Assembly: GCF_000585395.1 (NCBI RefSeq)
Contig: NZ_KK073875.1
Coordinates: 4,908,274 to 4,972,273 of the forward strand
Source: Saccharibacillus sacchari DSM 19268
GTDB lineage: Bacteria; Bacillota; Bacilli; Paenibacillales; Paenibacillaceae
DNA: 64,000 nucleotides
Reading direction: 5' to 3'
Under the pieces are notes generated by a model, which was not told the DNA's origin, did no database searches, and saw only the letters and a program-made list of their open reading frames with translations. The position numbers and the translations under genes are program-made. This document shows positions 4,625 through 56,154 of this stretch, piece after piece. How positions within the stretch are numbered: the first letter of the stretch is position 1; each line of letters starts with the position of its first letter.

Positions 4625-4755
4625 GGGAATGGGGCGGAGGAAGAAATTCGTTCAAGACGCTGTCTCACTCGGAAAAAACTGATTAAAATTTTAGCGGAAG
4701 TTTCCGAGTTCAAAGGCGTCTTTCACTGAATTTCTCCCTCCGCTTTTCATTTCCC
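4625..4755. repeat. Structured intergenic repeat R1, copy 1
   Basis: Long imperfect hairpin. The outer arms GCGGAGG-AGAAATTC and GAATTTCTCCCTCCGC pair, the middle arms AAGACGC and GCGTCTT pair, and the apical arms CTCGGAAA and TTTCCGAG pair. Conserved unpaired strands are GTTC, TGTCTCA and TTCAAAG. It ends 5 bp before the SD of the M20 gene, so it would lie in that gene's leader if co-transcribed. Other copies are at 9024, 35285 and 56054. Confidence 0.85.
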
Positions 4756-4785
4756 ATGGGATAGGGGTTTTATTTAGGAAAGATC

Positions 4786-4806
4786 AACGTCTTTGAGATA
4801 GACGTT
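4786..4806. other. Small hairpin between repeat R1 and the hairpin array
   Basis: AACGTCT and AGACGTT form a perfect 7-bp stem with a 7-base loop. There is no T tract on either side, so it is not an obvious terminator. Confidence 0.5.
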
Positions 4807-4828
4807 GGTTGGATTTGTTGGGTTTCCG

Positions 4829-5043
4829 GTGTCGAAAGCACTACTCCGTCCATAACTGGACTACACCTTGCTTTCGACACTTGTGTGAATAACGCAGTTC
4901 CGTCCATAGCCGGACTCCGCCTCGTTATTCACTGTGGCATTGGCACGGAGCGCCCTTTAACAGGGCTTCAGCAGCCTTGCCAATGCCACTTGTGTGAATA
5001 ACGCGGTTCCGTCCATAACTGGACTCCGCCTCGTTATTCACAC
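4829..5043. repeat. Tandem array of four hairpins with a shared core
   Basis: Four consecutive units occupy 4829-4880, 4885-4932, 4934-4989 and 4992-5043. Each has a perfect 10-12-bp outer stem: GTGTCGAAAGCA, GTGAATAACG, GTGGCATTGGCA and GTGTGAATAACG, each with its exact complement. Inside, units 1, 2 and 4 keep a core of the form TCC-GTCC-ATARCY-GGAC-TMCRCCT; unit 3 has a related core with GCCCT/AGGGC. The last unit touches the stop codon of the ABC ATPase gene (minus strand), so the array forms the 3' flank of the importer operon. No similar unit was seen elsewhere in the window. Function unknown. Confidence 0.85.
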
Positions 5044-5795
5044 TAAATACTATAATTAGCCTCTGGCGTGATTCTGCGCAGAAACTGCTTCGTCCGTTCT
5101 TCCTTCGGATGTTGGAATACTTCGTCCGGCGTTCCTTCTTCCACGATCACGCCGCCGTCCATGAAGACGACGCGGTTTGCCACGTCGCGGGCGAAGCCCA
5201 TTTCGTGGGTCACGACGATCATGGTGATGCCTTCGCGGGCGATGGCGCGGATGACTTCCAGCACTTCGCCGACCAACTCGGGGTCGAGGGCGGAGGTCGG
5301 TTCGTCGAACAGGATCACTTCCGGTTCGAGTGCCAATGCACGGGCGATTCCGACGCGCTGCTGTTGACCGCCGGACAGGCGGCTCGGATATTCGTTCAGT
5401 TTGGCGCCGAGGCCGACTTTTTCGAGCAATCCAATACTGCGCTTGCGTGCTTCGGCCGCAGGCAGTCTTTTTACGACCAGCAGCGCCTCCATCACGTTTT
5501 CCAAAGCCGTCTTATGTCTGAAGAGATTATACTGCTGGAACACCATCGCCGTTTTGCGTCGGAGCTGCAAAATATCGCCGCGACGGGCGCGCGAGCAATC
5601 GACTTGAAAATCGCCGACGGCGATCTGTCCGCTGCCCGGCTTTTCCAAATAATTCACGCAGCGCAGCAAGGTCGTTTTGCCAGATCCGCTGGGACCCAGA
5701 ATGACGACTACTTCGCCTCGGTTCACGTTTAAGCTAATATCCTGAAGCACTTGATTGCGTCCGAAGGATTTAGAAATGTTACTCAATGCGATCAT
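5043..5795 (-). CDS. Polar amino acid ABC transporter, ATP-binding protein
   Basis: 250 residues, full length for the GlnQ/HisP/TcyC family. Walker [12 protein letters not shown] near residue 34, Q-loop [12 protein letters not shown], signature [15 protein letters not shown], Walker [14 protein letters not shown] and switch VVTHEMGFA are intact. It energises import of an amino acid from the membrane's cytoplasmic face. Its ATG (GGAGGTG upstream) overlaps the stop of the preceding permease by 4 bp, showing translational coupling. Substrate cannot be read from the ATPase; context suggests cystine or a modified cysteine. Confidence 0.95.
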
Positions 5796-6502
5796 GCGAC
5801 ACCTCCCCGGTTGTATGCGCCGACTCGTTTTTCGATCAAAGCCGCGACGCGTTCGATCAATACCGTCAAGCCCCAGAAGATCAGCGCCGCTGCCAGATAA
5901 GCTTCGAAGAACTTCCAGTTGGTCGAAGCCACGATCTGCGCTTTGGCGTTGATATCGACGACCGATACGGCAAAAGCCAGCGTCGAGCCGTGCAGCATGC
6001 CGATGACGGAGTTCGCCAGATTCGGCAGCGCGGCGGCCAGTGCCTGCGGGAACACGATGCGGCGCAGCGATTGGAATGTGGTCATGCCGACGGATTGCGC
6101 CGCCTCGACCTGTCCGCGATCCACCGCCAGAATTCCCGCACGTACCACTTCCGACATGTAGGCGCCCGCCGTGATCGAGAACGAGATATACGCAAAGCCG
6201 ATCATCGGAATCGACACGGAACGGAAGCTCCAGCCGAAGTGTTCAGCCAGTCCGTCGATCACCATCGGAAGTCCGAAATAAATGATCAATAGATGCGTAA
6301 GCATCGGCGTTCCCCGGATAAAGGTCACGTAAGCGGAAGCGATCTGCGCCAACACGGGAACCCGGTACATCCGAAGCATCGCCGTGACGGCTCCGATCAC
6401 AAAACCGGCTAACACGGATAGCACCGTAATCGACAACGTAGTCGGAATCGCGCCGAGCAGCTGCCAGAAGGCTGTCCAGATAAATGAAGGATCAAGTTGC
6501 AT
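5792..6502 (-). CDS. Amino acid ABC transporter permease
   Basis: 236 residues, HisM/GlnP family. Several hydrophobic helices surround the EAA loop [19 protein letters not shown], which docks on the ATPase. Start ATG 6502 overlaps the upstream permease stop by one base, with GGAGGCGGAG as SD. With its paralogue it would form a heterodimeric membrane channel. The pair of permeases matches the TcyL/TcyM arrangement of cystine-type importers, but this is contextual. Confidence 0.93.
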
Positions 6503-7284
6503 CAGGCTCCGCCTCCTTTCCCGGTATGGATATCAGCCAATGCCGTCCGGTACGAGCCGCGCTTTTTCAAACGGAAGATCGATTCGCGCTTGTCCTCCCT
6601 GATCTCATGGCGCGTCAAGCGACGTTCGGCGGCAAGCAGCAATTTTTCCAGAGTAAAGCTGATAATCAGATAAATGAACGCCAGCGCGATATACGTCTCG
6701 ATAAAATGCTGCGTCAGCGTACCGAGCGTCTGTGCTTTGCCTGTCATCTCCATCACGCCCAGCGTAAATGCCAGCGACGTATCTTTGAGCAAAGCGATAA
6801 CCAGATTGGAAAAAACGGGTACCGCGATCCCCAAAGCCTGAGGCAGAATGATCCGCGAAAAAGCTTGATACGGCGTCATGCCTGCGGCATAGGCTGCTTC
6901 GACTTGTCCGCGATCCACCGCTTCTACCGAAGCGCGAATCATCTCCGCCGCATAAGCGCCTGTGTGCAGTCCGTATGTCAAAATCACGAAAAACATCACG
7001 GGAGCGCGGGTCAAATCGAGTCCGACCAGCTTCAGTATTTCCGGCAAACCGTAGTAGAACAAGAATAATTGAATCAGAATCGGCGTGCCGCGGAAAAAGG
7101 ACAAATAGATGCCCGACAACGTCCGCAACACCGGAATCTTATACATGCGAGGGAGCGCGACCAGAAACCCGGCCACGATCCCCGTCAATAGCGAACCGGC
7201 GACAATCAAGAGCGTAACGCCCAAGGTGTCCAGCAGCTTCGGCAGGAACGAAAAGACGTAGCCGATATCAAAAGGCGCGCCCAT
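6502..7284 (-). CDS. Amino acid ABC transporter permease
   Basis: 260 residues, second HisM/GlnP-family permease. The EAA loop [19 protein letters not shown] is intact and N-terminal hydrophobic helices are clear. The C-terminus carries an extra basic tail of roughly 30 residues (EDKRESIFRLKKRGS region) facing the cytoplasm, longer than usual. ATG 7284 follows GAAAGGAG. It is separated from the binding-protein gene by an intercistronic hairpin and directly coupled to the next permease. Confidence 0.93.
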   Translation of the reverse strand: MGAPFDIGYVFSFLPKLLDTLGVTLLIVAGSLLTGIVAGFLVALPRMYKIPVLRTLSGIYLSFFRGTPILIQLFLFYYGLPEILKLVGLDLTRAPVMFFVILTYGLHTGAYAAEMIRASVEAVDRGQVEAAYAAGMTPYQAFSRIILPQALGIAVPVFSNLVIALLKDTSLAFTLGVMEMTGKAQTLGTLTQHFIETYIALAFIYLIISFTLEKLLLAAERRLTRHEIREDKRESIFRLKKRGSYRTALADIHTGKGGGA

Positions 7285-7318
7285 CGAAAGTCTCCTTTCT
7301 TTTACTCCCTATAATGGT

Positions 7319-7365
7319 GCGGATGCCGAAGCTTCGACAAAGTTGCTGTCGCCCCCGGCATCCGC
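7319..7365 (-). promoter_or_regulatory. Intercistronic hairpin between binding-protein and permease genes
   Basis: GCGGATGCCG and CGGCATCCGC form a perfect 10-bp stem, with an inner CGACA/TGTCG pair. There is no strong T tract. Such hairpins after a binding-protein gene usually stabilise the upstream mRNA or partially terminate, giving more binding protein than permease (inference). Confidence 0.65.
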
Positions 7366-7389
7366 TTGAATGTTCATTCTTTCGCTTGA

Positions 7390-8241
7390 TTATTCGGCAT
7401 GATCGCCTGTTACGTCGCTGCCCAGCCATTCCGTGCTCAGCGCGCTCAACGTACCGTCTTCTTTCAGTTCTTTGACTGCGCCGTCGATCGCGTCGGACAA
7501 CGCTTTTTCGTCGGCGTCGTCTTTGCGGAACACGTACAGCACGTCGTCCGATGTCAACTCTTCGCCCGTTTGTTTCAATTGGCCTTGCGGGTCGATGATC
7601 GGCAGAACGAAATCGGCTGCGATCGTCGCGTCGACGCGTCCCGAGACGACTTGGCTGACCGTATCGTTGGCTTGTCCGCTTTGATACACGATATCGATCT
7701 TCTTGTCGTTTTCTTTATTGTAGTTTTCAAGGATTTGCGCTTCGGCGCTCGTTGCGCTGGTCAGCACTTTTTTGCCTTGCAGATCGTCCAGCGACTTAAT
7801 GGAGTCATTGTCTTTGGCGACGACGATCCGGTTGCGCCAATGCGCGTAAGCTTCGGAGTTGAACGCGTACTTCTCTTCGCGTTCCGGGTTCTTTTCCATA
7901 ACGTGAGCAACCAGATCAATCTTGTCCGTTTCCAGGCTCAACAGCAGATTGCCGAAGTCCATCGTTTGGAATTCAAATTCGTATTGCGGCAGCAGTTCGT
8001 CAATCTTACGCAAAAGTTCGACGTCGAATCCGGTCAGTTTGCCGTTTTCGTCGATAAAGCACACCTGCGGGAACCCTGTTCCTGTGCCTACGACGATCTT
8101 TGTCACTTTCCCGCCTGTCGCGGCGGAGTCTGAACCGGAAGCTTGTGCCGCGGGTTCACTGTTCGTTCCGCACCCCGAAGCCAAAATCATCAGACCCAGC
8201 GCAGATACGATCAAACTCTTTTTTCTTTTTTTGAAGTTCAT
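7390..8241 (-). CDS. Amino acid ABC transporter substrate-binding lipoprotein
   Basis: 283 residues of SBP_bac_3 type. A lipoprotein signal peptide (basic KKRKK, hydrophobic core, lipobox LASGC with Cys24) anchors it outside the membrane. The family opening VGTGTGFPQVCFIDENGKLTGFDVELL and the later FNSEAYAHWRNRIVV segment match cystine/polar-amino-acid binding proteins. It is the second gene of the unit that begins with the GNAT gene. Ligand not determinable by eye; a cysteine derivative is favoured by neighbours. Confidence 0.93.
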   Translation of the reverse strand: MNFKKRKKSLIVSALGLMILASGCGTNSEPAAQASGSDSAATGGKVTKIVVGTGTGFPQVCFIDENGKLTGFDVELLRKIDELLPQYEFEFQTMDFGNLLLSLETDKIDLVAHVMEKNPEREEKYAFNSEAYAHWRNRIVVAKDNDSIKSLDDLQGKKVLTSATSAEAQILENYNKENDKKIDIVYQSGQANDTVSQVVSGRVDATIAADFVLPIIDPQGQLKQTGEELTSDDVLYVFRKDDADEKALSDAIDGAVKELKEDGTLSALSTEWLGSDVTGDHAE

Positions 8242-8284
8242 TTTATTTATCCCCTTTGAATGTGGTCGATTTTATGGTGATCGG

Positions 8285-8809
8285 CTAAACTTGGTTCGCA
8301 ACGCGGTCCGCATACGCGTAATCCGCGATATTTTTTCGGAACAGATACATGATCCCGTCTCCGTTTTTGGCGTCGATTTCCAGAATGCGTTCATATCCGC
8401 GGCGTTCGTACATCTCCACTAACCACGGATGCTTTTTCGCCGTCGCCAGCGTGACTTCGTCGTGTCCGTGCGTACCGAGGATGATCTCCCGTTCGACCCA
8501 GTCGAGCAATCGTCCGCCGTATCCTTTGTTCGAATATTCAGGATCGACCGCGAACCACTTGATAAACGGCAGTTCGGTGATCGCTTTGGCTTCTCCGCTG
8601 GTGGAATAAGTGACCGTGGCGACCACGATTCCGTTCTCCTCCAGCACGTAACACTCGTTGGCCTCGATGTTTTGCAGCACCATCGGGATATCGGCATGGG
8701 CCGCGGGCCAGTGCAATCCCAGCTCGCGAATCAGCTCGTAGGCTCCGTACGTAACGTCGACCAACCGCTGGGCATCTTCAGCCACGGCTCTCCGGAAAAC
8801 CTCACTCAT
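8285..8809 (-). CDS. GNAT family N-acetyltransferase
   Basis: 174 residues from ATG 8809 (GGGGGTG upstream); an earlier in-frame ATG at 8845 lacks an SD. The acetyl-CoA loop region FAVDPEYSNKGYGGRLLDWVE, with a variant Q/RxxGxG/A motif, and the C-terminal LVEMYERRGYE are typical. As first gene before an amino-acid importer and an M20 deacylase it parallels SnaA/YxeL or YtmI of B. subtilis, which N-acetylate S-modified cysteines. The monooxygenase of those loci is absent here, so the exact pathway is open. Confidence 0.85.
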   Translation of the reverse strand: MSEVFRRAVAEDAQRLVDVTYGAYELIRELGLHWPAAHADIPMVLQNIEANECYVLEENGIVVATVTYSTSGEAKAITELPFIKWFAVDPEYSNKGYGGRLLDWVEREIILGTHGHDEVTLATAKKHPWLVEMYERRGYERILEIDAKNGDGIMYLFRKNIADYAYADRVANQV

Positions 8810-8968
8810 TTTGTGCACCCCCGCTTTTAATTTTATATCACCCATTTGTTTACTCGGGATTGATTGCTGTTAACTTTATCACTCTGAAACGGCTCCGGCT
8901 AATAGAGTTTTTCGATTTGCTTATATAAAACATTGATAAGTGAACGTTGGAAGCTATTTTTGCGCATG

Positions 8969-8995
8969 AAAAAAGAGCGAAAGTTGGTTTCGCTC
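8969..8995 (-). terminator. Rho-independent terminator after the signalling operon
   Basis: On the minus strand GAGCGAAA and TTTCGCTC form an 8-bp stem with a 5-base loop, followed by TTTTTT. It lies about 220 bp beyond the HD-GYP/kinase stop, with repeat R1 copy 2 between, so R1 would be inside the operon's 3' UTR. Confidence 0.8.
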
Positions 8996-9023
8996 AAGGG
9001 GTTGAGAAAGTTACGTAGGAGGG

Positions 9024-9156
9024 GGAAGCGAGAAGACTGCGAGAAAAATTCGTTCAATTCGCTGTCTCACTCGGAAAATGGATGGGATTTGAATAAGGAA
9101 TTTTCCGAGTTCAAAGGCGTCTTTCACTGAATTTTTCTCTACGTCTTCTCGCTTCC
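9024..9156. repeat. Structured intergenic repeat R1, copy 2
   Basis: The most extended copy. The outer arms GGAAGCGAGAAGAC and GTCTTCTCGCTTCC pair perfectly over 14 bp, then GAGAAAAATTC pairs with GAATTTTTCTC, and the apical CTCGGAAAA pairs with TTTTCCGAG. Relative to copies 1 and 4 the lower stem has two extra A-T pairs on both strands, a compensatory change. In the left middle arm AAGACGC is replaced by AATTCGC, which weakens that helix. Confidence 0.85.
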
Positions 9157-9216
9157 AGTTACGTTTGGTTTTCTTGATACGTTAAGGCGAAAGCCAGCCT
9201 CCGCCTTACAGGATAA

Positions 9217-11436
9217 TCAAAGAGACAATCGATTCCCGGCGATCGCGGTTCGGGTTGTACCGGTGTCTTCATTCGGAATAGGCTTCGTTTGGACAAAGGT
9301 AGCTGTTTGCGGAAGGTTGCTTTTCGATTCGGCTTCGCCGGGGGCTTGGAGCATGCCGTCGAATTCTAATAGAACTCGGGTTCCTTTCGGGTCCGTGTAA
9401 AGGAACATCCGGTCTGCCGAAGCGTACATGACGCCGAATCCTCTGCCGAGCGAGCGTTTGCTGCTGTAGCCGGATACGACGAAAGTTTTCGGCAGCTCGT
9501 GCAGAGCGATTCCCGAGCCTTCGTCGTGTACCAGGACTTGAAGCGAACCTTCGCGCGCGAATGCGGTGACCTGTCCGCCCAGCGCATGCTTAAGCAGATT
9601 GGTTGCCGCTTCGGATACCGCCAGTTTCACCTGCATGATGCGCTTGGGATCGCCTTGCGGCATATAGCTTGCGGCCAGGTCGCGGCTTCGGGCGATATCC
9701 GTTCGTTCGGCCACCGTGACGGCTTCCAGACGCTCGCCCAGCCGACCCAGCAGTTCTTCCTTGGTTAGGCATAAGGAGACTTTGCCTTCCGACAAGGCCG
9801 ACATGATTTCCCGATAAGCATTCAGCGTCTCGGCATGCAGCTTATCCCGATAGGCGATTGCCGGGGTAATATCCGTTAATGCAATACGTACCTCGCCATA
9901 TTCCGGGTAGAAGTGAGCTTCGTACGTACGATCTTCGCACTTCAAAATTTCATAAAAGGAAGTCTGCTCCGCATCGGCGCGTCTCGCCAGCCGAACGATG
10001 TAAGCTTCAAGCGCCGGTTGTTCCAATCCGTACAACAAGCCGTCCGCTGCCAGTTTCAACATCGTGCTCGACCCTACATAGGAACCTTGCTCTTCGTCCG
10101 AATCGGAACCGCGTTCCGCAGTTTTCGCATATTCGTAAGATTCTTCCGGCTCGGGAAGCGGTCCGGATACCAGACCTCGCTGCTCCAGTTTCTCCCGCAC
10201 GCCCTGTACAAAACTTACATCCACGGCAGCGGCAAGTTGCGGATCGATCTCCCGGCCTGCTAACCGCTGGATGTAGGCGCAGACCGCCTCGTCATCATTT
10301 TCCCGTCTCAATACATGATCAAGCCGACTGGCGATAGACAAAATACGGGATTCATAAGGAATAGCTTTGCCTTTGAGTCCTATAGGGAAGCCTTTGCCAT
10401 CCCAGTGTTCATGATGATGCCGCACCCATTCGGCCGCGCGGCTATCCTCTGTCAGCGTGAGAATGATCTCCGCCCCTTTTTCGCTGTGGGAACGGTATTC
10501 GTCTTCCTCGGACAAAGATAACGCACCTCGTTTGTTAAACAAATAAGCGGGCAGCGTCGACTTTCCGATATCGTGCTGAATCGCCACCTGCACCAGCACC
10601 CTTTTTTTATCGCGCGGGTAGGCCAGACGGTCCAGCAAGTGGTCTGCAATGACCCCGCTTCGGATTCCGTGTCCTTCGAGATCTTTGGACAGCCGGGATT
10701 CGAACAGCAGGCTGAACCGTTCGAACGTACGCCGCCATCCCGCTACTTCGCGAACGTAGACGGTGGAAAAGTACAGGATGAAAAACAACAAAAGACCCGT
10801 ATAAGCCAACTCGTACGCCGTATCATCTTCCAACAGATTGCCGAGAAAATGCGGAATGACCACGATGCAAAGCAGAATCGGAACGAGGGTCTCGCGCAAT
10901 CGGCCCCGAATCCCCGCTAACCAAGCCGTCCCCGACAAAACTTTGCGCATTCCCGCATCCAGCGGAAGCTTTACGGCTTTGAAAGCCAATGCGGCAAGCG
11001 CCGCCTTCGCGTATAACGGTACATCCGGCCAAAGCGCGATCAGTCCGCCCAATGCCAAAGCGGCCCCGCATGTGCTTAACGTATAAATCGCCAATCGGGT
11101 CAACCAGCGCAGCGGATCAAATGCTTTGGGCCGAAAACCGCTTTGCCTGGCCTCGTTAGCCAAACAGCTGATGAATACGCCCAATAGCGCGGTGTAGAAG
11201 CCGAATCCTATCAGCAGGGACAAGAAGCCGATCAAGCCGGCTCCGAATTCTTCCCCGCTGATCAATCGGATCGGAAACAAATCGAGCAATAACGTGAGCA
11301 GCAAAATCGGCAGCACATGCGCCCAAGGGACTTGTCCGGCCCCGACGGCGAGAATCGCCCCGTAGAGAAATCCGGCCAACGCCCAAAATGGATACGGAGC
11401 AGGGTTCGTTGTATTCGGTGGTGTTTTCACGCTCAT
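9217..11436 (-). CDS. Membrane HD-GYP protein fused to an anti-sigma-type HATPase
   Basis: 739 residues from ATG 11436 (AAGGAAC SD). Residues ~14-225 form six or seven membrane helices. An HD-GYP domain follows, with HDIGK near 288, then HSEKGAEIIL and HHEHWDGKGFP near 345, the signature of cyclic-di-GMP phosphodiesterases with GFP for GYP. A PAS-like segment lies near 500-540. The C-terminus (~580-715) is an RsbW/RsbT-class ATPase: N-box SEAATNLLKHA, G1 DEGSGI and G2 LGRGFGV. It follows a STAS gene, FapA and a Rec-PP2C phosphatase in one operon, so it is probably the kinase of a partner-switching module. The combination with HD-GYP is unusual. Neither activity is proven. Confidence 0.88.
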   Translation of the reverse strand: MSVKTPPNTTNPAPYPFWALAGFLYGAILAVGAGQVPWAHVLPILLLTLLLDLFPIRLISGEEFGAGLIGFLSLLIGFGFYTALLGVFISCLANEARQSGFRPKAFDPLRWLTRLAIYTLSTCGAALALGGLIALWPDVPLYAKAALAALAFKAVKLPLDAGMRKVLSGTAWLAGIRGRLRETLVPILLCIVVIPHFLGNLLEDDTAYELAYTGLLLFFILYFSTVYVREVAGWRRTFERFSLLFESRLSKDLEGHGIRSGVIADHLLDRLAYPRDKKRVLVQVAIQHDIGKSTLPAYLFNKRGALSLSEEDEYRSHSEKGAEIILTLTEDSRAAEWVRHHHEHWDGKGFPIGLKGKAIPYESRILSIASRLDHVLRRENDDEAVCAYIQRLAGREIDPQLAAAVDVSFVQGVREKLEQRGLVSGPLPEPEESYEYAKTAERGSDSDEEQGSYVGSSTMLKLAADGLLYGLEQPALEAYIVRLARRADAEQTSFYEILKCEDRTYEAHFYPEYGEVRIALTDITPAIAYRDKLHAETLNAYREIMSALSEGKVSLCLTKEELLGRLGERLEAVTVAERTDIARSRDLAASYMPQGDPKRIMQVKLAVSEAATNLLKHALGGQVTAFAREGSLQVLVHDEGSGIALHELPKTFVVSGYSSKRSLGRGFGVMYASADRMFLYTDPKGTRVLLEFDGMLQAPGEAESKSNLPQTATFVQTKPIPNEDTGTTRTAIAGNRLSL

Positions 11437-11508
11437 CGGTTCCTTTCCTATAGGATATGCTATCCGTTTCAAGCTCCGGCATGACCCGTGCAAGCCGCGG
11501 AATCCTTC

Positions 11509-11820: not shown

Positions 11821-11856
11821 GCTGTTCCTCCTCTTTGTATATGAAATGAATCATGA

Positions 11857-35076: not shown

Positions 35077-35271
35077 ATGTTCCTGTTTTTTCTGATTCTT
35101 GTTGCAATTGGGGCAGTGAACGTGCTGGCGCCGCAGTTCGTTTGGCGGATCCGGTACGGGAAACTGGCTGGAGAAAATTCGGAGCCGAATCCGTCTTTTT
35201 TGACGCTGAGCCGATTGGCGGGGATGATGGCTTTGGTGGGGGCGACGCTGATTTTGACGAATGGGTTGTGA
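35077..35271 (+). CDS. Small membrane protein, DUF6199-like
   Basis: 64 residues from ATG 35077 (AAAGGAG upstream with somewhat long spacing; an ATG at 35038 lies too close to a TATAAT box to be likely). Two hydrophobic segments (FLFFLILVAIGAVNVLAP and LAGMMALVGATLIL) flank a WRIRYG plus acidic loop, as in DUF6199 proteins. Function unknown. TATAAT near 35020 marks a plausible promoter. Confidence 0.65.
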   Translation: MFLFFLILVAIGAVNVLAPQFVWRIRYGKLAGENSEPNPSFLTLSRLAGMMALVGATLILTNGL

Positions 35272-35284
35272 AAAGTCCTATTCG

Positions 35285-35408
35285 TTGGGGAAGCTGGGGG
35301 GCTGCGGGGGAAATTCGTTCAAAACGCTGTCTCACGCAGAAAGCCTCCGGCTTTCCGCGTTCAAAGGCGTTTTTCACTGAATTTCCCCCTTCGCCTGTCG
35401 CTTCGCAA
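35285..35408. repeat. Structured intergenic repeat R1, copy 3
   Basis: The most divergent copy. The lower stem is GGGGGAAATTC with GAATTTCCCCC. The apical stem is ACGC-GAAAGCC with GGCTTTC-GCGT in place of the CTCGGAAA-type stem of the others. The conserved unpaired segments (GTTC, CTGTCTCA, TTCAAAGGCGT, TTTCACTGAA) are unchanged. It lies between the convergent DUF6199-like and phosphoesterase genes. Confidence 0.85.
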
Positions 35409-35431
35409 GAATAAGACCTTTTCACAGCAGT

Positions 35432-45840: not shown

Positions 45841-45843
45841 CCG

Positions 45844-48210: not shown

Positions 48211-48326
48211 AGTCAACCTGCATTTGTTCAAAAAATGATCTTTTTTATTATTTTTTAACCTTTACTTGTAAAAAACCATCAGAAAAAGACTGTCCCGTCC
48301 GATATAAGTCTTAAGGGGTGGTTTTA

Positions 48327-48584: not shown

Positions 48585-48620
48585 TGAATGCCCTGCATGA
48601 TTTCTCATCGTTGGTTGCAC

Positions 48621-48675
48621 AAAAAGCGGCAAACCCGAATCCAAGCTGAATCTCAGCCCGGGGACGCCGCTTTTT
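48621..48675 (+). terminator. Rho-independent terminator with long stem-loop
   Basis: AAAAAGCGGC and GCCGCTTTTT flank an inner CCG/CGG pair and a long loop. It follows the OrfA-like gene. Confidence 0.6.
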
Positions 48676-48722
48676 GGCGTATTGGTCGAAATACGATTCA
48701 AGCATGAATGGAGGCCTGTCGC

Positions 48723-49457
48723 GTGTTCGCTTCTTTTTTCTCTTCCAATGTTTCCGAGCCGTTTGCCGCATTTTCCGCCGCTCACCTGAGTGCATTGGGT
48801 TTATTTGCAGCTGCCGCAATTTCGATGTTTATTTTTCGAAGTGCAATCCGTTCCGGATCCAAACTTAAACAAGCGTTGCGCCTCATGCTTCTCATCGCTT
48901 TGGTTGCAACCGAAGTTTCTTTACATATCTGGTATATCGCGTCGGATGTCTGGAATGCTCGATATACATTACCGCTTGAGCTATGCAGTCTAATGCTTCT
49001 TGCCGCGATTATCATGCTGATTACGCGCAGCCGCTTTTTGGCCGGGCTTGTCTTTTTCGCGGGGATTGGAGGCGCTTTGCAGGCACTCTTGACGCCTAAC
49101 CTGGCTTACGAGTACCCGCATTTTCGTTTTGTGCAGTTTTTTATCGCTCACGCTGCCATTATTTTGTCCGCGCTCTACATGGTTTGGATCGAGCGTTTCC
49201 GTCCTACTTGGCGAACCGTTTTCACGGCAATGTTATCGCTGAACGTCATCGCGTTGGTCGTGTATCTGCTGGACTGGATTTTGGATGCCAATTACATGTT
49301 CTTGCGCAGAAAGCCGGATACCCCGTCCATACTCGATCTGTTCGGCGATTATCCGCTTTACATTTTGGTTGAAGAACTGCTGGCGCTTTTTACGTTTACT
49401 ACGCTGTATATCGTATTCTTCGCCATTCCGGATGCGCTGCGGCGAAAAAAAGAGTAA
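48723..49457 (+). CDS. TIGR02206 family integral membrane protein (YwaF-like)
   Basis: 244 residues from GTG 48723; GGAGG lies eight bases upstream, while the ATG at 48708 overlaps that SD. Seven predicted helices. Conserved segments HLSALGLFA, LHIWYIASDVWNARYTLPLELCSLMLL and LDANYMFLRRKPDTPSILDLFGDYPLYIL match TIGR02206/YwaF. Function unknown. Convergent with the SDR gene with 11 bp between stops. Confidence 0.9.
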   Translation: MFASFFSSNVSEPFAAFSAAHLSALGLFAAAAISMFIFRSAIRSGSKLKQALRLMLLIALVATEVSLHIWYIASDVWNARYTLPLELCSLMLLAAIIMLITRSRFLAGLVFFAGIGGALQALLTPNLAYEYPHFRFVQFFIAHAAIILSALYMVWIERFRPTWRTVFTAMLSLNVIALVVYLLDWILDANYMFLRRKPDTPSILDLFGDYPLYILVEELLALFTFTTLYIVFFAIPDALRRKKE

Positions 49458-49468
49458 AACAAGTTACT

Positions 49469-50254
49469 TTAAAGAAGCGATTCGGCACCGTCCACGAAAA
49501 TCTCCGTGCCGCTGATATGCGAAGAATCATCGGAGCTTAAGAACAGAACGAGCTTGGCGACTTCTTCCGGTTTGCCGGGACGCCCTTCCAGCGGATGGCT
49601 GCCTTCCGGGTATTCGACCGGAATCGCGATCTTTTTCAAATCGTCGCTCGGGAACGTGTTTTTGCCGATATTCGTTTCGATGGCGCCGGGACAAATGACG
49701 TTGACGCGAATCTTGTAACGGGCCAATTCCAGCGCCGCCATTTTCGCAAAAGCGACTTGTCCCGCTTTTGACGAGGAATACGCCGAAAAACCGGTACCCG
49801 AGAACGCGCGGCTTCCGTTGATGGAGCTTGTAATCACGACGCTTCCTCCCTGCTTTTTCAAGTAGGGGATCGTATATTTGACCGTAGCGAACGTCCCGCG
49901 CAGATTCGTCTCCAACGTCCGGTTCCAATCCTCGATTTCCATCGTTTCGATCGGAGCTGCCGCTCCGTTGATTCCCGCATTGGCGAAAACCGCATCGATC
50001 CGTCCCCATGTCTCGCCTACGCGCTGAACAGCCGCCTGCACCGATTCAGGACGCGATACGTCGCATTCGATCGCAAACGCTTCGCCGCCGGCTTTCTCGA
50101 TCTCCCGCTTCGTTTCTTCCGCCGTATCGGTCGTAAGTTCCAACAAAGCGACTTTCGCGCCTTCGGCGGCCAAAAGAATAGCGCTTGCTTTTCCGATTCC
50201 CGAACCTGCTCCTGTTACTACGGCTACTTTTCCGGCCATTCTTCCGTTTGTCAT
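49469..50254 (-). CDS. SDR family oxidoreductase (glucose 1-dehydrogenase/3-oxoacyl-ACP reductase type)
   Basis: 261 residues. Classical SDR motifs: VTGAGSGIGKASA at the N-terminus, NAGINGAA, a catalytic Ser in ITSSINGS and YSSSKAG. The C-terminus (FLSSDDSSHISGTEIFVDGAESLL) is that of classical tetrameric SDRs. Cofactor preference appears NAD(H)-like because of the acidic LLELTTD after strand 2. Substrate unknown. ATG 50254 has GGAGGAG. Confidence 0.93.
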   Translation of the reverse strand: MTNGRMAGKVAVVTGAGSGIGKASAILLAAEGAKVALLELTTDTAEETKREIEKAGGEAFAIECDVSRPESVQAAVQRVGETWGRIDAVFANAGINGAAAPIETMEIEDWNRTLETNLRGTFATVKYTIPYLKKQGGSVVITSSINGSRAFSGTGFSAYSSSKAGQVAFAKMAALELARYKIRVNVICPGAIETNIGKNTFPSDDLKKIAIPVEYPEGSHPLEGRPGKPEEVAKLVLFLSSDDSSHISGTEIFVDGAESLL

Positions 50255-50446
50255 ATGAATTCTCCTCCGTTTTCTTTAAAGGGTTGTCGGTATAAGCTTT
50301 GCTTGGTTTTGCGTTTCCGTCATGTATTCGGTAACCTTCTCGCTTTCTTCTGAAACCGTTTACGAGAACCGGATATAAAATGTTTTCAAAAATTTAAGGT
50401 TTACTATTGAATGCGACATCGCGATATGTTAAATTGATTAAGAACT

Positions 50447-50505
50447 TGAGAGTGACTCTCATTCTCCCGAGAATAAAACTCATTATCTCGACAATGAAAA
50501 TCATC
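50447..50505. promoter_or_regulatory. Fur-like 7-1-7 dyads
   Basis: TGAGAGTGACTCTCA at 50447-50461 is a perfect 7-1-7 palindrome. CGACAATGAAAATCA at 50489-50503 matches the Fur-box form TGATAATGATTATCA at 11 of 15 positions. An ACTCATTATC segment lies between. They are in the 421-bp gap between the SDR gene (minus) and the DUF1540 gene (plus), about 100 bp upstream of the latter's promoter. The regulator (Fur, PerR or Zur) cannot be decided. Confidence 0.4.
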
Positions 50506-50572
50506 CTCACTATTTCCGAACATTATCGGCATTTTTATTGCTGATTATTCATATTTTTTTATAAAACGCGGG

Positions 50573-50600
50573 TTGCGGACCTGCTTATTTGTGTTATATT
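50573..50600 (+). promoter_or_regulatory. Putative promoter of the DUF1540 gene
   Basis: TTGCGG, a 16-bp spacer and TATATT, about 75 bp before the start codon. Confidence 0.5.
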
Positions 50601-50675
50601 GATTTTAGAAGTTTTGTTGCCTCGTCGGTGAGTTTGCAGCAAACCAAAATCCAATATGACACGGAGGTTTTACAC

Positions 50676-50813
50676 ATGTCCACGATCCAATGCCAAGTTT
50701 CCGATTGCACGAACTGGGAATCCAACACTTGCACAGCCGAGAAGATCGAAGTTGTTTTCGCTCCGGATCACACTGCCGAGTGCACGACGTTCGAAGAAAA
50801 GCAAGAAGCTTAA
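50676..50813 (+). CDS. Small cysteine-rich DUF1540 protein
   Basis: 45 residues from ATG 50676 with GGAGG upstream. Four cysteines at 6, 11, 19 and 36 in the pattern CQVSDCTNWESNTCTAEKI...CTTF are the DUF1540 signature; they likely bind a metal ion. Related short proteins are common in sporeformers; the role is unknown. It is a single gene with its own terminator. Confidence 0.9.
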   Translation: MSTIQCQVSDCTNWESNTCTAEKIEVVFAPDHTAECTTFEEKQEA

Positions 50814-50830
50814 TTGCCACATTTATTCGT

Positions 50831-50887
50831 AAAAAGAAGGGTATCCCGCAAATCGTCTTCGGACTCCGGGACAACCCTTCTTTTTTG
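50831..50887. terminator. Bidirectional rho-independent terminator
   Basis: AAAAAGAAGGGTATCCCG and CGGGACAACCCTTCTTTTTT form a long stem. It separates the DUF1540 gene from the converging alpha-glucosidase gene. Confidence 0.9.
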
Positions 50888-50903
50888 TTCCGTTTTGAAT
50901 AGA

Positions 50904-52715
50904 TCAATCGGCTGCGCTTATGCGATAGATCGCGGATTGATAAGGAAGCAGATCAAGCATGCAGTCTCCCGTCCGGTCGCTTCGTCTCTGAAGCGGAACG
51001 CCGGACTTCGAGGGTGCCGAGGTTGCCAAGCCGCTGCCGAGCAGCAGTTCACCCTGTTCGATCAGGCATGCCCATTTCTCTTCGATACGGCAGCTTCGCG
51101 ATTGATTCGAGAGATTGACCAGCACGATCCAACGTTCCTCCGCCGCTGCGCGCACATAAGCGAACAACCACTCGTCTTCGAGCGCAAGCATGTTCAGATC
51201 GCCCCGTGCGGGAACTGGCGATTGTTGCCTCAGCCGGATCAATTGCCGATAGTGATTCAATACGGATGAAGAATCATTTTGCTCATCCTCCGCATTCGCG
51301 GCTTGTCCTTGAGGACTGAGCGGAATCCACGGCGTCCCGTCAGTAAATCCTGCTCCCGTTCCTGTTGTCCAATGCATCGGCGAACGTGCCCCGTCCCGAC
51401 TTCGCGCGTGCAGACTGACGAGAATGTCCCGCTCTGATTCCCCTTCAGCCAACCGTCTTTGATAGGCACTCACCGTTCCTTTATCGCGGTAGTCTTCGAG
51501 CGAGCGATAATTCGCGTTCGGCATGCCCAGCTCTTCGCCTTGGTACACAAGCGGAGTTCCGGGCAACGTATGCAAAAAGGTTCCGATCGCTTTTGCCGCG
51601 GCGTCGTTCCAGGCTTTGCCTTCCGTTCCTCCGACCCCTGCCCGATCGCCGAATAACGTACCGACCATGCGCGGATGATCGTGCGTGTTGAGATAAAGCG
51701 CATAGGCTCCTCGGTTGAACACCTCTTCATACCAGCGCACTACGCTTTCCTTCAGCATGGCAGGCGACCAATCGGGATCCGTTTTCCACGGATTGCCGAA
51801 ATCTTTGCCCATGCGAACCAATTCCATCTGAAGCACCATATCCATTTCTTTGCGCTCGGGCGCCGTGTAACGGACCACCTCGTCCATCGTCACCGTCGGC
51901 GCTTCGCCCAATGTCAGCGTGCCCGGATAGCGTCCGAATGTCGCTTCGTGCAGTTCGCGGAGCATCTCATGGATACGCGGACCGTTTTTATAAAACTGCT
52001 GTCCTCTCGGATGTCTCGCATCTTGAGGAGCATCCGGAAAATCCGGGTGCTTCGAGATCATATTGATCGCGTCAAGCCGGAAGCCGTCCACGCCTTTTTC
52101 CAACCAAAACCTGATCATTTCATACAGGTCCTGACGCATGGCTTCGCTGTCCCAATTCAAATCCGGCTGCTTTTTATCGAAAATATGCAGATAGTATTCG
52201 CCGGTTCGTTCATCGAGCTCCCAGGCCGACTCTTCGGAAAAAGAACGCCAGTTGTTGGGCGGGCCTCCGTCTGCCGCCGGCGGTTTCCAAATGTAATAGT
52301 CTCGATACGGATTGTTCGTCGAAGATCGGGAAGCCTCAAACCACGGATGCTCATCCGACGTATGGTTGATCACCAAATCCATAATGAGCTTGATGTCGCA
52401 TTCGTGTAGCTTGACAAGCAATTCTTCAAACTGCTGCAGCGTACCGTACGCGTCGTGAATCTTATAGTAATCCCGGATATCGTAACCGTTATCCTCCATC
52501 GGAGAATCGCATACCGGACCGATCCAGACCGCACTGACGCCAAGCTCGGCCAGATAGCCCACCTTCTCCAACATCCCGCCGATATCTCCCCATCCGTCGC
52601 CGTCGCTGTCTTTAAAACTCGGGGGATACAACTGGTACAACACGCCTTCCTGCCAGTCTCGCCCGATGCTTTGCTTCGTCTCGGCTGTATCGATTACCTT
52701 GTCTTTGGCCTCCAT
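50904..52715 (-). CDS. GH13 alpha-glucosidase (oligo-1,6-glucosidase subfamily)
   Basis: 603 residues from ATG 52715 (GGAGGAG SD). GH13 regions: VNHTSDEHPWF, GFRLDAINM with the nucleophile Asp, TLGEAPTVTMDEV with the acid/base Glu, and LNTHDHPRMVGTLFGD. The opening DWQEGVLYQLYPPSFKDSDGDGWGDIGGML and VDSP-like VCDSPMEDNGYDIRDYY place it with GH13_31 oligo-1,6-glucosidases/alpha-glucosidases. No signal peptide, so it acts on imported maltodextrin or isomalto-oligosaccharide. It is a single gene, divergent from the Gfo/Idh operon. Confidence 0.93.
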   Translation of the reverse strand: MEAKDKVIDTAETKQSIGRDWQEGVLYQLYPPSFKDSDGDGWGDIGGMLEKVGYLAELGVSAVWIGPVCDSPMEDNGYDIRDYYKIHDAYGTLQQFEELLVKLHECDIKLIMDLVINHTSDEHPWFEASRSSTNNPYRDYYIWKPPAADGGPPNNWRSFSEESAWELDERTGEYYLHIFDKKQPDLNWDSEAMRQDLYEMIRFWLEKGVDGFRLDAINMISKHPDFPDAPQDARHPRGQQFYKNGPRIHEMLRELHEATFGRYPGTLTLGEAPTVTMDEVVRYTAPERKEMDMVLQMELVRMGKDFGNPWKTDPDWSPAMLKESVVRWYEEVFNRGAYALYLNTHDHPRMVGTLFGDRAGVGGTEGKAWNDAAAKAIGTFLHTLPGTPLVYQGEELGMPNANYRSLEDYRDKGTVSAYQRRLAEGESERDILVSLHARSRDGARSPMHWTTGTGAGFTDGTPWIPLSPQGQAANAEDEQNDSSSVLNHYRQLIRLRQQSPVPARGDLNMLALEDEWLFAYVRAAAEERWIVLVNLSNQSRSCRIEEKWACLIEQGELLLGSGLATSAPSKSGVPLQRRSDRTGDCMLDLLPYQSAIYRISAAD

Positions 52716-52944
52716 CGTTCTCCTCCTCGCCGTTCTTCTTAGGGGATAACCGAAAAAAGACGCAGCTAAACAGCGAATGCTTTCAGATAAGAAGCAAATC
52801 GTAAACACGAAAAACATTCCGATTCCTTTGTCGTAATATTGAAGGTTAAATGTCGCATGCTTTTAGTGAATTCGCTATTTTCGTATGCTATTTTAAGTAT
52901 GGAAATGTCAGAATGTTGGATATCGAGTACAGGAGGGTTACACA

Positions 52945-53946
52945 TTGGGAATTCGCATAGGAAAAGTTAGTCTGTGGCATGTCCATGCTTGGGATTATAT
53001 CGGTCAAGCGCAGGCTCACCCCGACACGGACATCACGGCCGTATGGGATGAGATTCCGCAGAGAGGTCGCGAAGCCGCCGAGAAGCTCGGCGTGCCTTAC
53101 TACGAGACCTTGGATGAACTGCTCGCTTCGGATGAAGTGGACGCGGTCATTGTGGACGCGCCGACGAATCGGCACAAAGAAGTGATGATTGCTGCCGCTC
53201 GCGCGGGCAAACATATCTTTACGGAAAAGGTGATCGCTCCAACCGAAACGGAAGTGAAGGAAATTATTGCGGAAGTGGAACAGGCAGGTATCAAATTGAC
53301 GGTCTCCCTTCCTCGTCTGAACGACGGTTACACGCTGGCGATTCAGGATATCTTGGAACGCGGATTGCTGGGTCAAGTCACTTATGTCCGGGTCAGATTG
53401 TCGCATGACGGCGCGCTCGCGAACTGGCTGCCGGAGCATTTCTACAATGCCGAGCAGTGCGGCGGCGGCGCTTTGATCGACCTGGGCTGTCACCCGATGT
53501 ATCTGTCCGCGCTGTTCCTCGGCGAAGCGATCACCGGCGTCAGCGCCAACTTCGGCTACATAACAGGCAAAGAAGTCGAAGATAACGCTCTGGCTACGCT
53601 GTTTACGGCATCCGGCGCAATCGCTTCGGTAGAAGCCGGCTTCATCAATGCTTACTCTCCATTCACGGTGGAAGTGCACGGAACGGAAGGGACCGTTCTT
53701 TACGGCACGCCGGATAGCAAGCTGCTGCTTCGTTCCAAGCGAGACGAAGCAGCGGCTGAATGGACGGAACAGCCTTTGCCTGCCAACCGCGAAAGCGCGT
53801 TCGAGCAATGGGTTCGCCATATCCAAGAAGATACGCTCGCTTCGGAAAATATTGCCGCGGCGATCCAGCTTACGCGTCTGATGGAAGCAGCCAATCGTTC
53901 AGCGAAAACAGGTTCGGTCGTTTCCCCGCAAGAGCTGAACGGTTAA
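52945..53946 (+). CDS. Gfo/Idh/MocA family oxidoreductase
   Basis: 333 residues, beginning at TTG 52945 with GGAGG eight bases upstream. N-terminal Rossmann fold (IRIGKVSLWHVHAWDY, ITAVWDEIPQRG), the dinucleotide/substrate motif GKHIFTEKVIAPT with the EK-P-like catalytic Lys, and a C-terminal GGGALIDLGCHPMYL. These enzymes oxidise or epimerise sugars and inositols with NAD(P). The first glycine motif GxGxxG is replaced by GKVSLWHVH, an atypical form. First gene of a three-gene operon; substrate unknown. Confidence 0.92.
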   Translation: MGIRIGKVSLWHVHAWDYIGQAQAHPDTDITAVWDEIPQRGREAAEKLGVPYYETLDELLASDEVDAVIVDAPTNRHKEVMIAAARAGKHIFTEKVIAPTETEVKEIIAEVEQAGIKLTVSLPRLNDGYTLAIQDILERGLLGQVTYVRVRLSHDGALANWLPEHFYNAEQCGGGALIDLGCHPMYLSALFLGEAITGVSANFGYITGKEVEDNALATLFTASGAIASVEAGFINAYSPFTVEVHGTEGTVLYGTPDSKLLLRSKRDEAAAEWTEQPLPANRESAFEQWVRHIQEDTLASENIAAAIQLTRLMEAANRSAKTGSVVSPQELNG

Positions 53947-53947
53947 C

Positions 53948-54958
53948 ATGGGTGGACATATCGCGCATGCCGCGCCTTTTCCCTACGAGACGATGTTTGA
54001 AAAAAGCGATTTGCTGGAGCGGCTTGAGATTGCGGTGACCTGGGGCCACTACGAGATTCGCGTGCTGCGCTTTCATTTGACCTCATTCGAACCGGGGCGC
54101 GTCATTAGTTTTCATAATCACTCGACCTACGAATTTCATTTTATTCCGCGCGGAGCGGGCCGGGTCATTCTTGGCGATCAACCCTATTCCTTGTCGGACG
54201 GCATGCTGTATCTGACCGGCCCCGGCGTGATGCACTATCAAGAAGCCGATTCGCAGCAAGCGATGGAAGAGTTATGCCTGCATCTGGATATCGTGCCGAA
54301 GACCAATCCGTCCGTTGATCCGTGGGAAGCGGCGGAAGCGGAAGAATGCATGCAGAAACTGAACGCGCTTCCTCCTAGACCTACGCAGGACAGCTACGGC
54401 GCCATGCCTTGTTTTCTGGATGCTTATGAAGCCTGCGAGAGCAAACGACTCGGTTACTACACCGATATTCGAATGCAGGTCGTCTCGATTTTGCTAAAAA
54501 CGATTCAAGCGTACGATTCGGGCGACGTCGGAATGGAAGCGCCAAGTCGCGACATGGTGGCTTACCGCTACGAATACGCCGTCCGTTATATGGAAGCCAA
54601 CTACACGTCCGGGCTGCGCTTGGAAGACGTCGCGGAAAAGTTGGACCTCAGCGCTCGCCAGCTTCAACGTATTTTCCGCGATATTGATCCGACCCGGCCT
54701 TTCAGCCGCGTGCTGGAAGATATTCGATTGCGCGCGGTCTGCGATCGTCTGCGAACCGGAAGCCTGTCGATTGAGCGGATTGCCGAACTTGAAGGATTCT
54801 CGACAGCGGCTTACCTGCATACCGTTTTTCGCAAACGCATGGGCATGTCGCCTTCCGTGTATCGGAGAGCGAAACAATCCGAGCTGCATCGTCAGCCGGC
54901 CGAAGCGCCCATTCCCCTGTTTTCCCATTCCAAAAACGAGGTGAATCATCATGAGTAA
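53948..54958 (+). CDS. AraC family regulator with cupin domain
   Basis: 336 residues. A cupin sensor region occurs at ~45-110 (FEPGRVISFHNHSTYEFHFIPRGAG, LYLTGPGVMHYQ), followed by a ~100-residue linker and a C-terminal AraC HTH (LRLEDVAEKLDLSARQLQRIFR; IERIAELEGFSTAAYLHTVFRKRMGMSPSVYRR). It starts one base after the preceding Gfo/Idh stop without a strong SD and overlaps the next by 8 bp, so it is translationally coupled. It probably autoregulates the operon. Confidence 0.92.
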   Translation: MGGHIAHAAPFPYETMFEKSDLLERLEIAVTWGHYEIRVLRFHLTSFEPGRVISFHNHSTYEFHFIPRGAGRVILGDQPYSLSDGMLYLTGPGVMHYQEADSQQAMEELCLHLDIVPKTNPSVDPWEAAEAEECMQKLNALPPRPTQDSYGAMPCFLDAYEACESKRLGYYTDIRMQVVSILLKTIQAYDSGDVGMEAPSRDMVAYRYEYAVRYMEANYTSGLRLEDVAEKLDLSARQLQRIFRDIDPTRPFSRVLEDIRLRAVCDRLRTGSLSIERIAELEGFSTAAYLHTVFRKRMGMSPSVYRRAKQSELHRQPAEAPIPLFSHSKNEVNHHE

Positions 54959-56036
54959 AACGTATAAAATCGGTATCGTCGGCTGCGGCGGCATTGCCAA
55001 CGGCAAGCATCTTCCGAGTCTGAGCAAATTGAAAAACGTCGAACTGGTCGCCTTCTGCGATCTGGTGCCGGAGCGCGCGGAAGAAGCCGCAGCCAAATAC
55101 GGCAGCGAAGGCGCAAAAGTATACACCGACTATACCGAATTGCTGAAAGACGGTTCGATCGACATCGTGCACGTCCTGACGCCGAACGAATCGCACGCAC
55201 GCATCTCCATTGCGGCTCTGGAATCGGACAAACACGTCATGTGCGAAAAACCGATGGCCAAAACAGCAGCCGAAGCCCGTCAAATGGTCGAAGCGGCGAA
55301 AAAGTCCGGCAAAAAGCTGACCGTCGGTTACAACAACCGTTTCCGCCGCGACAGCCAGTATTTGAAAAAGATTTGCGAAGCGGGCATGCTCGGCAATATC
55401 TATTATGCCAAAGCGCATGCGATTCGCCGCAGAGCCGTTCCGACATGGGGCGTGTTCCTGGACGAAGAAAAGCAAGGCGGCGGCCCGTTGATCGATATCG
55501 GGACTCACGCGCTCGATCTGACGCTGTGGATGATGGATAACTACAAGCCGAAAGTCGTGCTGGGCACCAAATACCATGAGCTTTCCCAACGCGAGAACGC
55601 AGCGAATGCTTGGGGACCTTGGGACCCGGAGAAATTCAAAGTGGAAGACTCCGCATTCGGGATGATCGTGATGGAAAACGGAGCCACCGTGGTGCTGGAA
55701 TCGAGCTGGGCGATCAACTCGCTGGACGTGGACGAAGCGAAATGCAGCCTCAGCGGCAGCGAAGGCGGAGCGGACATGAAAGGCGGTCTGCGCATCAACG
55801 GCGAAGAGTTCGGCCGTCTGTATACGAAAGAAGTCGATTTGTCTTCCGGCGGCGTCGCGTTCTATGAAGGCAAAGCGGAAAGCGACTCCGATCTGGAGAT
55901 GTATCGTTGGATCGACGCGATCGAAAACGATCTGACGCCGACTGTGACGCCGGAGCAGGCATGCGTGGTGTCGGAGATTCTCGAAGCGATTTACGAGTCG
56001 GCGCGGACGGGCAAAGCGGTGTACCTCAACGAGTGA
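54951..56036 (+). CDS. Gfo/Idh/MocA family oxidoreductase
   Basis: 361 residues. Standard NAD(P) motif KIGIVGCGGIANGKHLPSL, the catalytic EKP motif in HVMCEKPMAKTAAEA and the GGGPLIDIGTHALDLTLWMMD segment are intact, unlike its operon partner. The C-terminal alpha/beta domain includes ESSWAIN and ends with the usual ACVVSEILEAIYESARTGK. Two linked dehydrogenases with an AraC regulator suggest stepwise sugar oxidation/epimerisation; substrate unknown. Confidence 0.94.
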   Translation: MSKTYKIGIVGCGGIANGKHLPSLSKLKNVELVAFCDLVPERAEEAAAKYGSEGAKVYTDYTELLKDGSIDIVHVLTPNESHARISIAALESDKHVMCEKPMAKTAAEARQMVEAAKKSGKKLTVGYNNRFRRDSQYLKKICEAGMLGNIYYAKAHAIRRRAVPTWGVFLDEEKQGGGPLIDIGTHALDLTLWMMDNYKPKVVLGTKYHELSQRENAANAWGPWDPEKFKVEDSAFGMIVMENGATVVLESSWAINSLDVDEAKCSLSGSEGGADMKGGLRINGEEFGRLYTKEVDLSSGGVAFYEGKAESDSDLEMYRWIDAIENDLTPTVTPEQACVVSEILEAIYESARTGKAVYLNE

Positions 56037-56053
56037 GTGAGTGTGGGCGCTTC

Positions 56054-56154
56054 GGGAGAAATTCGCTCAAGACGCTGTCTCACTCGGAAAAGTTGATTGG
56101 AATTTTTAGTTGAAGTTTTCCAAGTTCAAAGGCGTCTTTCGCTGAATTTCTCCC
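56054..56154. repeat. Structured intergenic repeat R1, copy 4
   Basis: The lower stem is GGGAGAAATTC with GAATTTCTCCC, and the apical stem is CTCGGAAAA with TTTTCCAAG (one G-C to G-T change). Uniquely here GTTC is GCTC on the left and TCACT is TCGCT on the right, a paired change. It lies between the converging Gfo/Idh operon and pullulanase gene. Confidence 0.85.

Follow-up and report, generated by a model that had tools for sequence, protein, structure and literature searches.

We describe R1, a structured intergenic repeat of Saccharibacillus sacchari DSM 19268 first noticed at four sites in a 64,000-nucleotide stretch of its genome (contig NZ_KK073875.1, positions 4,908,274 to 4,972,273; hereafter the window), and propose, with a probability of about three in four, that it is a family of miniature inverted-repeat transposable elements (MITEs) mobilized by a DDE transposase of the IS1182 family. 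R1 is a large family of structured repeats with covarying stems, and a good third of the copies with one of its two outer forms, type A, are flanked by repeats of a hairpin. The same genome harbours an IS1182-family insertion sequence (IS) with the ends and the target habit of R1. This resident IS would move R1 in trans, and the copies with the second outer form, type B, are likely to belong to the same process by virtue of their homology with type A.

Size and orientation of the R1 family

The four copies are present at the coordinates given in the preliminary description, and all four contain the conserved blocks and complementary stems reported there. The block TTCAAAGGCGTCTTTCACTGAA occurs four times in the window with up to three mismatches, as against no occurrence in 100 shuffles, and the genome, a single contig of 6.08 Mb, contains 169 exact instances of a two-block pattern (102 on the plus and 67 on the minus strand), as against none in the reversed control, thereby excluding a chance origin. 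The idea of a four-copy family has to be abandoned: 185 copies (105 plus, 80 minus) were collected, after the removal by eye of the matches 2807696 and 5758199 and the retention of the odd variant 3462142, and the family, with at least this number of members, is estimated at roughly 200. Further sites with type A ends and an alternative core, such as GGTCGCGTGTTGAAATCGGG...CCCGATTTCAAAGGCGAACACT, lie beyond this count. The two-block pattern and the pattern used across genera fix letters of the loops, so that loop invariance is partly built into them; a search with a covariance model built from 34 copies, which is freer in this respect, yields at least 150 matches in the genome. None of the 185 copies lies inside a gene called by our codon-usage script, the calls of which carry errors, and the elements are too short to contain a transposase gene. 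The common orientation reported for the copies holds within the window and breaks down genome-wide, and no bias of orientation with respect to the replichores was seen across the genome copies. The preliminary description recognized R1 as no named family. It has no match in Rfam at the gathering score in the window, permissive searches of its parts gave only scores far below threshold (for example, 27.9 bits against a threshold of 130 for eukaryotic microRNA precursors), and searches of the open-access literature yielded no description of it.

Two outer forms were distinguished by a loose motif rule, which, like the gene calls, carries errors and classified 178 copies, namely 74 of type A with the ends CAGGCTGTCGAGAAAGT...ACTTTCTCGACACGTTG and 104 of type B with AAAGTCCTGTTCG...CGAACAGGACTTT. 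Local arrangements include facing pairs of copies about 200-420 bp apart (21206/21546, 977512/977853, 2381333/2381550, 2895408/2895660, 3319195/3319615 and 4325502/4325736), some of which also occur in S. endophyticus. The minus-strand copies at 4325736 and 4326605 lie 0.87 kb apart with the same flanks, suggesting a local duplication, and a run of N follows the second of them. Near 5669600 (L266) the core is repeated inside one element, and near 3884353 on the minus strand (L260) a pair of type A ends without a core stands beside a hairpin and is possibly a deletion remnant of R1.

The resident IS1182-family element

The profile PF13751 has five matches in the genome, two of which are near-identical copies of a 1568-bp IS at 6055488-6057055 and 3475368-3476935 (1559 of 1568 positions identical); within the genus, matches were found in 5 of 16 genomes, four of them over the cut-off. 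The match of the IS to PF13751 is above the cut-off of that profile. A query limited to the first 190 residues of the IS transposase hits the NCBIfam IS1182 model NF033551 with an E-value of 1.6e-62 and 212 bits, a score that this truncation leaves under the cut-off of 270 set for whole proteins, and the N-terminal piece also matches PF05598. The IS begins with CAGGCTGTCGAGAAACTC and ends, in reverse complement, with CAGAATGTCGAGAAACCC; comparison with the R1 element ends CAGGCTGTCGAGAAAGTTAC and CAACGTGTCGAGAAAGTC reveals shared sequence such as CAGGCTGTCGAGAAA, and terminal inverted repeats are thus common to type A R1 and the resident IS. IS-type ends were also seen on a copy with a type B body in the genome G002 (L247) and, by eye, an element of another genus (L330) has the IS-like ends TGTTGAGAAACCC...GGGTTTCTCAACA. 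At other sites with the type A end, 19 segments of about 460-660 bases inspected by eye revealed no parent transposase.

Both IS copies lie between exact hairpin duplications of 20 and 21 bp, AGGCTCCGATGCCGGAGCCT and ACCACGGTCAGATACCGTGGT, outside which the first copy has both an A-run and a T-run and the second an A-run only. An IS copy in the genome G003 is flanked by a 31-bp duplication. In the S. sacchari genome, near 3475300, an IS1182 copy directly adjoins an apparent R1 type A end outside the 185 counted (L313), and at two other IS1182-type loci (L314, L316) the end-like sequence TTTGTCGACAGTCTG stands beside hairpins.

Flanking hairpins and probable insertion at terminators

In many cases a type A element has a terminator-like hairpin on each side, and the two hairpins resemble each other. 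Measured against a control that pairs the flanks of different copies (7 of the 185 copies, which lack anchors, were excluded), direct repeats exceed the 99% control level in 27 of 74 type A copies, about 0.7 being expected. These repeats span 14-36 bp; an A-run precedes the left-hand repeat in 18 of the 27 copies, and a T-run follows the right-hand repeat in 21. The sole clear empty site found, which contains a single hairpin, lies in S. endophyticus and corresponds to the copy at 3439777. As regards gene context, among the 183 copies with usable neighbours (two had none), 70 lie between convergent, 104 between tandem and 9 between divergent genes, as against 21, 116 and 55 of 192 element-free gene pairs from the same stretches, and this convergent-rich, divergent-poor distribution fits insertion at terminators. 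IS1272, a member of the IS1182 family, is reported to insert into terminator hairpins without sequence specificity, with deletion of part of the hairpin (PMC4923244), and a published model for it is one in which the stem-loop is either replaced or duplicated at both ends (PMC5678879). Loss of the stem-loop without duplication is not what is found here, where a hairpin stands on both sides at both IS copies of this genome and at the 27 type A copies.

These observations can be assembled into a putative mechanism, for which part of the type A copies and the IS provide the sequence support. The transposase would recognize the ends CAGGCTGTCGAGAAAG.../...CTTTCTCGACACGTTG and target rho-independent terminator hairpins, and insertion would leave the hairpin (about 14-36 bp) on both sides, giving the order A-run, hairpin, element, hairpin, T-run. 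As the T-run then stands only beyond the far hairpin, transcription from either neighbouring gene should run through R1 before stopping. Type B probably comprises older or terminally changed members, or else insertions of the stem-loop-replacing IS1272 style.

Several observations weigh against mobilization by the resident IS. The other 47 of the 74 type A copies do not exceed the flank control. By eye, type B, the larger of the two classes, has no IS-like ends in this genome, and its flanks exceed the control for direct repeats in only 4 of 104 copies (9 of 104 for inverted matching), and the link to the IS is therefore direct only for type A. The IS and R1 share end sequence of about 15 bp and no common interior was seen; in the copy that was read, the transposase is distributed over two reading frames, so that the IS may not be active; and an IS copy in G002 lies between two different hairpins. 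No PF13751 match was obtained in S. endophyticus CCM 8702 (G015), despite its 144 exact R1 copies. Because the flanking hairpins are palindromes, the type A flanks match in inverted orientation as well, above the control in 27 of 74 copies, and the inverted score is above the direct one in 26 of the 35 copies that pass either (direct in 8, equal in 1), a comparison to which the A- and T-runs contribute. When the hairpin loops alone are compared in 25 copies, the direct match is better in 13 and the inverted in 6, with 6 ties. Given the palindromic origin of the inverted matches and the preference of the loops for direct matching, target duplication is the better, though not the only, reading of the type A flanks.

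Architecture and covariation of the hairpin

R1 forms a single long hairpin, in which the internal motifs are fixed and the stems vary freely by compensating changes. Its anatomy, parsed in 141 of the 185 copies (44 were not parsed), comprises from the outside inwards on the strand of the preliminary description (hereafter the reading strand) the ends, an outer stem, a 3x3 loop, a lower stem, a bulged T, a middle stem, an upper loop and an apical hairpin. The 3x3 loop has the form TNC/TNC, with TGC/TCC in 93 of the 141 parsed copies; the lower stem is GGGAGAAATTC/GAATTTCTCCC or a variant of it; the bulged T is present in 140 and the upper loop TGTCTC/TCAAAG in 132. The middle stem contains two mismatches, TC/TC, in 95 copies and the paired TC/GA in 34. 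Hence the blocks previously taken to be unpaired are only partly so, as GTTCAAGACGC pairs with GCGTCTTTCAC save for these two mismatches. The limits first drawn were too narrow, for the TNC/TNC loop and the outer arms lie outside them, and the elements of the window measure about 135-190 bp. The strands adjoining the middle stem can give way to two optional modules, each of which includes a small hairpin.

The stems covary within the genome, at orthologous loci and across genera. In an alignment of 34 copies, from which long or odd rows were left out by choice, 89.0% of the cells of a 37-pair structure are paired, as against 82.9% in shuffled and at most 52.1% in slid controls; double-change cells number 98, as against 27.3 in shuffles, and the covariation score is 0.228, as against 0.109 in shuffled and at most 0.113 in slid controls. 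At loci orthologous with S. endophyticus, 24 of 40 copy pairs were usable (16 were not) and display 18 double Watson-Crick changes, 47 single changes and one other double change. The cross-genus set consists of 22 chosen sequences, without near-duplicates and the unpaired L322 and with one row (L320) incomplete, and covers 15 pairs, five of which are invariant since the search pattern fixed them. Here the score is 0.545, as against 0.148 in shuffled and at most 0.189 in slid controls; two of five measures barely exceed the shuffles, namely double-change pairs (10 as against 8.4, with 60 of 500 shuffles as high) and further pair types (25 as against 21.1, with 20 of 500 as high). The double changes, together with the scores above both kinds of control, indicate that the pairing of R1 is maintained either by selection or by a mutation process based on pairing; the controls do not remove relatedness.

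The search of Paenibacillaceae genomes with the covariance model, which had been proposed as a check, recovered matches both within and outside the genus. All 16 genus genomes have matches, ranging from 2 to at least 150 each, and 34 of 118 family genomes are matched, of which 23 lie outside the genus with weak scores (best E-value 1.5e-8). Searching 197 family genomes for a shared alternative core pattern gave hits in 45 genomes and in 11 of 19 genera, including that of R1, as against none in the reversed control; in one genus (g12) the single core match, L322, is unpaired, leaving 10 of the 11 genera credible. A common outer plan is discernible by eye in many of the 24 cross-genus loci. Two loci of a genome from another genus (L321 and L334 in G063) contain tandem arrays of three core elements with periods of about 220-260 bp.

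The folded strand

The strand that folds is probably the opposite of the one given in the preliminary description. On this opposite strand TNC/TNC becomes GNA/GNA and TC/TC becomes tandem G.A, and 15 of the 18 short apical loops, those of the form TNC, turn into GNA triloops. GNA triloops are unusually stable in DNA. DNA energies assign the greater stability to the opposite strand in 109 of 141 copies and the lesser in 29 (p about 1e-14). Wobble-type cells amount to 80 of 4089 (27 G.T and 53 A.C), which is few for an RNA. RNA energies disagree, slightly favouring the reading strand (87 versus 53 of 141 copies; p 0.008), and the asymmetry of 53 A.C over 27 G.T is inflated by shared ancestry, both of which tell against DNA of the opposite strand as the folded form. 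On the whole, the loops, mismatches and DNA energies favour, without proving, a folded DNA of that strand. The GNA/GNA, tandem G.A and GNA triloop motifs suggest that R1 may work as a folded single strand or as cruciform DNA, for example by joining its ends for the transposase, and the hairpin would then have been retained for a role of the DNA in transposition.

R1 copies in the window

Three of the four window copies, all of which lie on the plus strand, are of type B. Copy 1 (type B, 4623..4757) stands in the leader of an M20-peptidase gene (open reading frame 3436-4713, minus strand) and contains CGC at 4658-4660, the upper-loop strand TGTCTC at 4661-4666, the apical hairpin and TCAAAG at 4710-4715; S. 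endophyticus has a different, though still paired, apical domain at the orthologous site. Copy 2 (type A, 8996..9183) is a full element with the degenerate IS1182-type ends TTGAGAAAGTTACG ... TTTTCTTGA. It is preceded by a terminator-like hairpin at 8975..8995, GAGCGAAAGTTGGTTTCGCTC, with an A-run before it, and followed by another at 9184..9207, AAGGCGAAAGCCAGCCTCCGCCTT, which is possibly the diverged partner of the first; this pair is not among the 27 type A cases above the control threshold. Copy 3 (type B, 35271..35423) has a short apical hairpin with the triloop TCC (GGA on the other strand) and the outer arms AAAAGTCCTATTCG / GAATAAGACCTTTT. Copy 4 (type B, 56040..56175) carries the GCTC/TCGC variant of the lower pair, starts where a GFO/IDH/MocA oxidoreductase gene (54951-56036) reaches its stop codon and ends before the next terminator.

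Copies 2 and 4 are both present in S. endophyticus CCM 8702, and copy 4 occurs also in G014 with very different but paired stems. Within 420 bases at the orthologous sites, neither was found in G002, G003, G008, G010 or G013, nor was copy 2 in G014. Apart from R1, tandem glycine riboswitch aptamers (RF00504; 64.8 and 35.8 bits) are present at 62352-62581.

Alternative explanations

The preliminary description had interpreted R1 as a selected RNA or single-stranded DNA structure rather than a passive repeat. The covariation bears out the structural part of this claim, and the choice itself was a false one, since at least type A looks mobile. It had also named a MITE family as an explanation that would overturn its view; the type A ends and duplicated hairpins do point in part to one, while the label of a MITE leaves the conservation of the fold unexplained. 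Two other explanations of that conservation have to be weighed.

It appears doubtful that R1 is primarily a functional RNA, for instance an element of 3' untranslated regions or an attenuator, with a selected transcript fold and secondary mobility. Such an RNA would account for covariation within the genome and across genera, while the rarity of wobble-type cells, the suitability of the loops and mismatches for the opposite strand together with the DNA energies, and the lack of an Rfam match at threshold speak against it; the RNA energies lean slightly in its favour. Of 112 copies in sense with the preceding gene, 103 have a core that begins no more than 150 nt from the stop codon, and a type B copy at 1421042 ends, by eye, in a T-run directly after the closed stem; yet the copies in tandem gene pairs are antisense rather more often than sense (62 versus 42), so that a sense bias as a sign of RNA function is unsupported there. 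Similar cores at few copies per genome in other genera, seen by eye, would also suit an RNA, whereas the type A copies of this genome behave like transposed units.

Mutation in place of selection, whereby template switching between the arms or conversion between copies would keep the palindromes of a passive MITE paired, is likewise rather unlikely. The double changes with few wobble intermediates agree with it, as do the excess of double Watson-Crick over other double changes, beside many single ones, in the ortholog pairs and the swap of the whole apical domain at the orthologous site of copy 1. The same process could have shaped the flanking hairpins too, and the frequent advantage of inverted over direct matching in type A flanks is in line with this. 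Against such a process, the internal loops stay fixed mismatches (TNC/TNC, TC/TC and, in 132 of 141 copies, TGTCTC/TCAAAG) and are not perfected, and a similar plan recurs in other genera.

Mobilization of R1 as a repetitive extragenic palindromic (REP) or REPIN element by a REP-associated tyrosine transposase (RAYT; Y1 HUH) acting on single-stranded hairpins, to which the high copy number, the extragenic hairpins and the DNA-type loops would be suited, is very improbable and was rejected, as PF01797 matches 1 of 16 genus genomes and neither this genome nor S. endophyticus CCM 8702, refuting such a partner here, short of a Y1 enzyme too diverged for the profile to detect, and as duplications of terminators are not expected of the RAYT mechanism. 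Readings of R1 as related to integron attC sites, group II introns or tyrosine recombinases were considered on general grounds only and set aside.

Mobilization by an IS1182-type transposase, the explanation favoured here, admits a further, tentative extension in which donor and target would both be chosen by shape, the R1 DNA hairpin and not an RNA being selected and read by the transposase, which would recognize its target, too, as a hairpin. In that case the shape of the core might have been kept across about ten genera of one family while the stems turned over. Against this stands the consideration that a MITE needs only its ends, and there is no sign that the transposase needs the R1 hairpin. 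R1 joins strong base-pair covariation, which is usually taken as proof of a functional RNA, with transposition at terminators, two phenomena seldom met together; should its hairpin serve as a DNA substrate, covariation by itself would be no evidence of RNA, and IS1182 transposition would become testable as a process directed by shape at both ends. The insertions, many of which adjoin terminators, further constitute a naturally occurring collection in which the rewiring of gene 3' ends can be studied, and the family supplies a covariance model of a repeat class without a match in the Rfam searches made.

Comparison with known systems

Like REP and REPIN elements, R1 is a high-copy, hairpin-shaped extragenic repeat; it differs from them in that this genome has no Y1 transposase and type A R1 has flanking hairpin repeats. 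REP elements are also shorter than R1. The pneumococcal SPRITE (PMC3049150) resembles R1 as a terminator-associated repeat at the 3' ends of genes, whereas R1 is not a simple stem with a T-tract, and for type A the terminator serves as target instead of being the element. The BOX elements of Streptococcus pneumoniae are similar in plan only, being high-copy, short, modular, strongly folded and enriched near the 3' ends of genes, and a resident IS whose ends are similar has been proposed to mobilize them (PMC3049150). Unlike BOX, R1 has modules at internal-loop positions, stems that covary across genera and many copies between terminator hairpins. A further parallel to its proposed mobilization is IS1272/TnSha1, which shares the transposase family, insertion at terminator hairpins (PMC4923244) and, in one branch of the model, duplication of the hairpin (PMC5678879). 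IS1272 reportedly deletes or replaces the stem-loop and makes no target duplication; R1 carries no transposase of its own, and in this genome both of the two IS copies show a duplicated hairpin, and a hairpin stands on either side of 27 of 74 type A copies.

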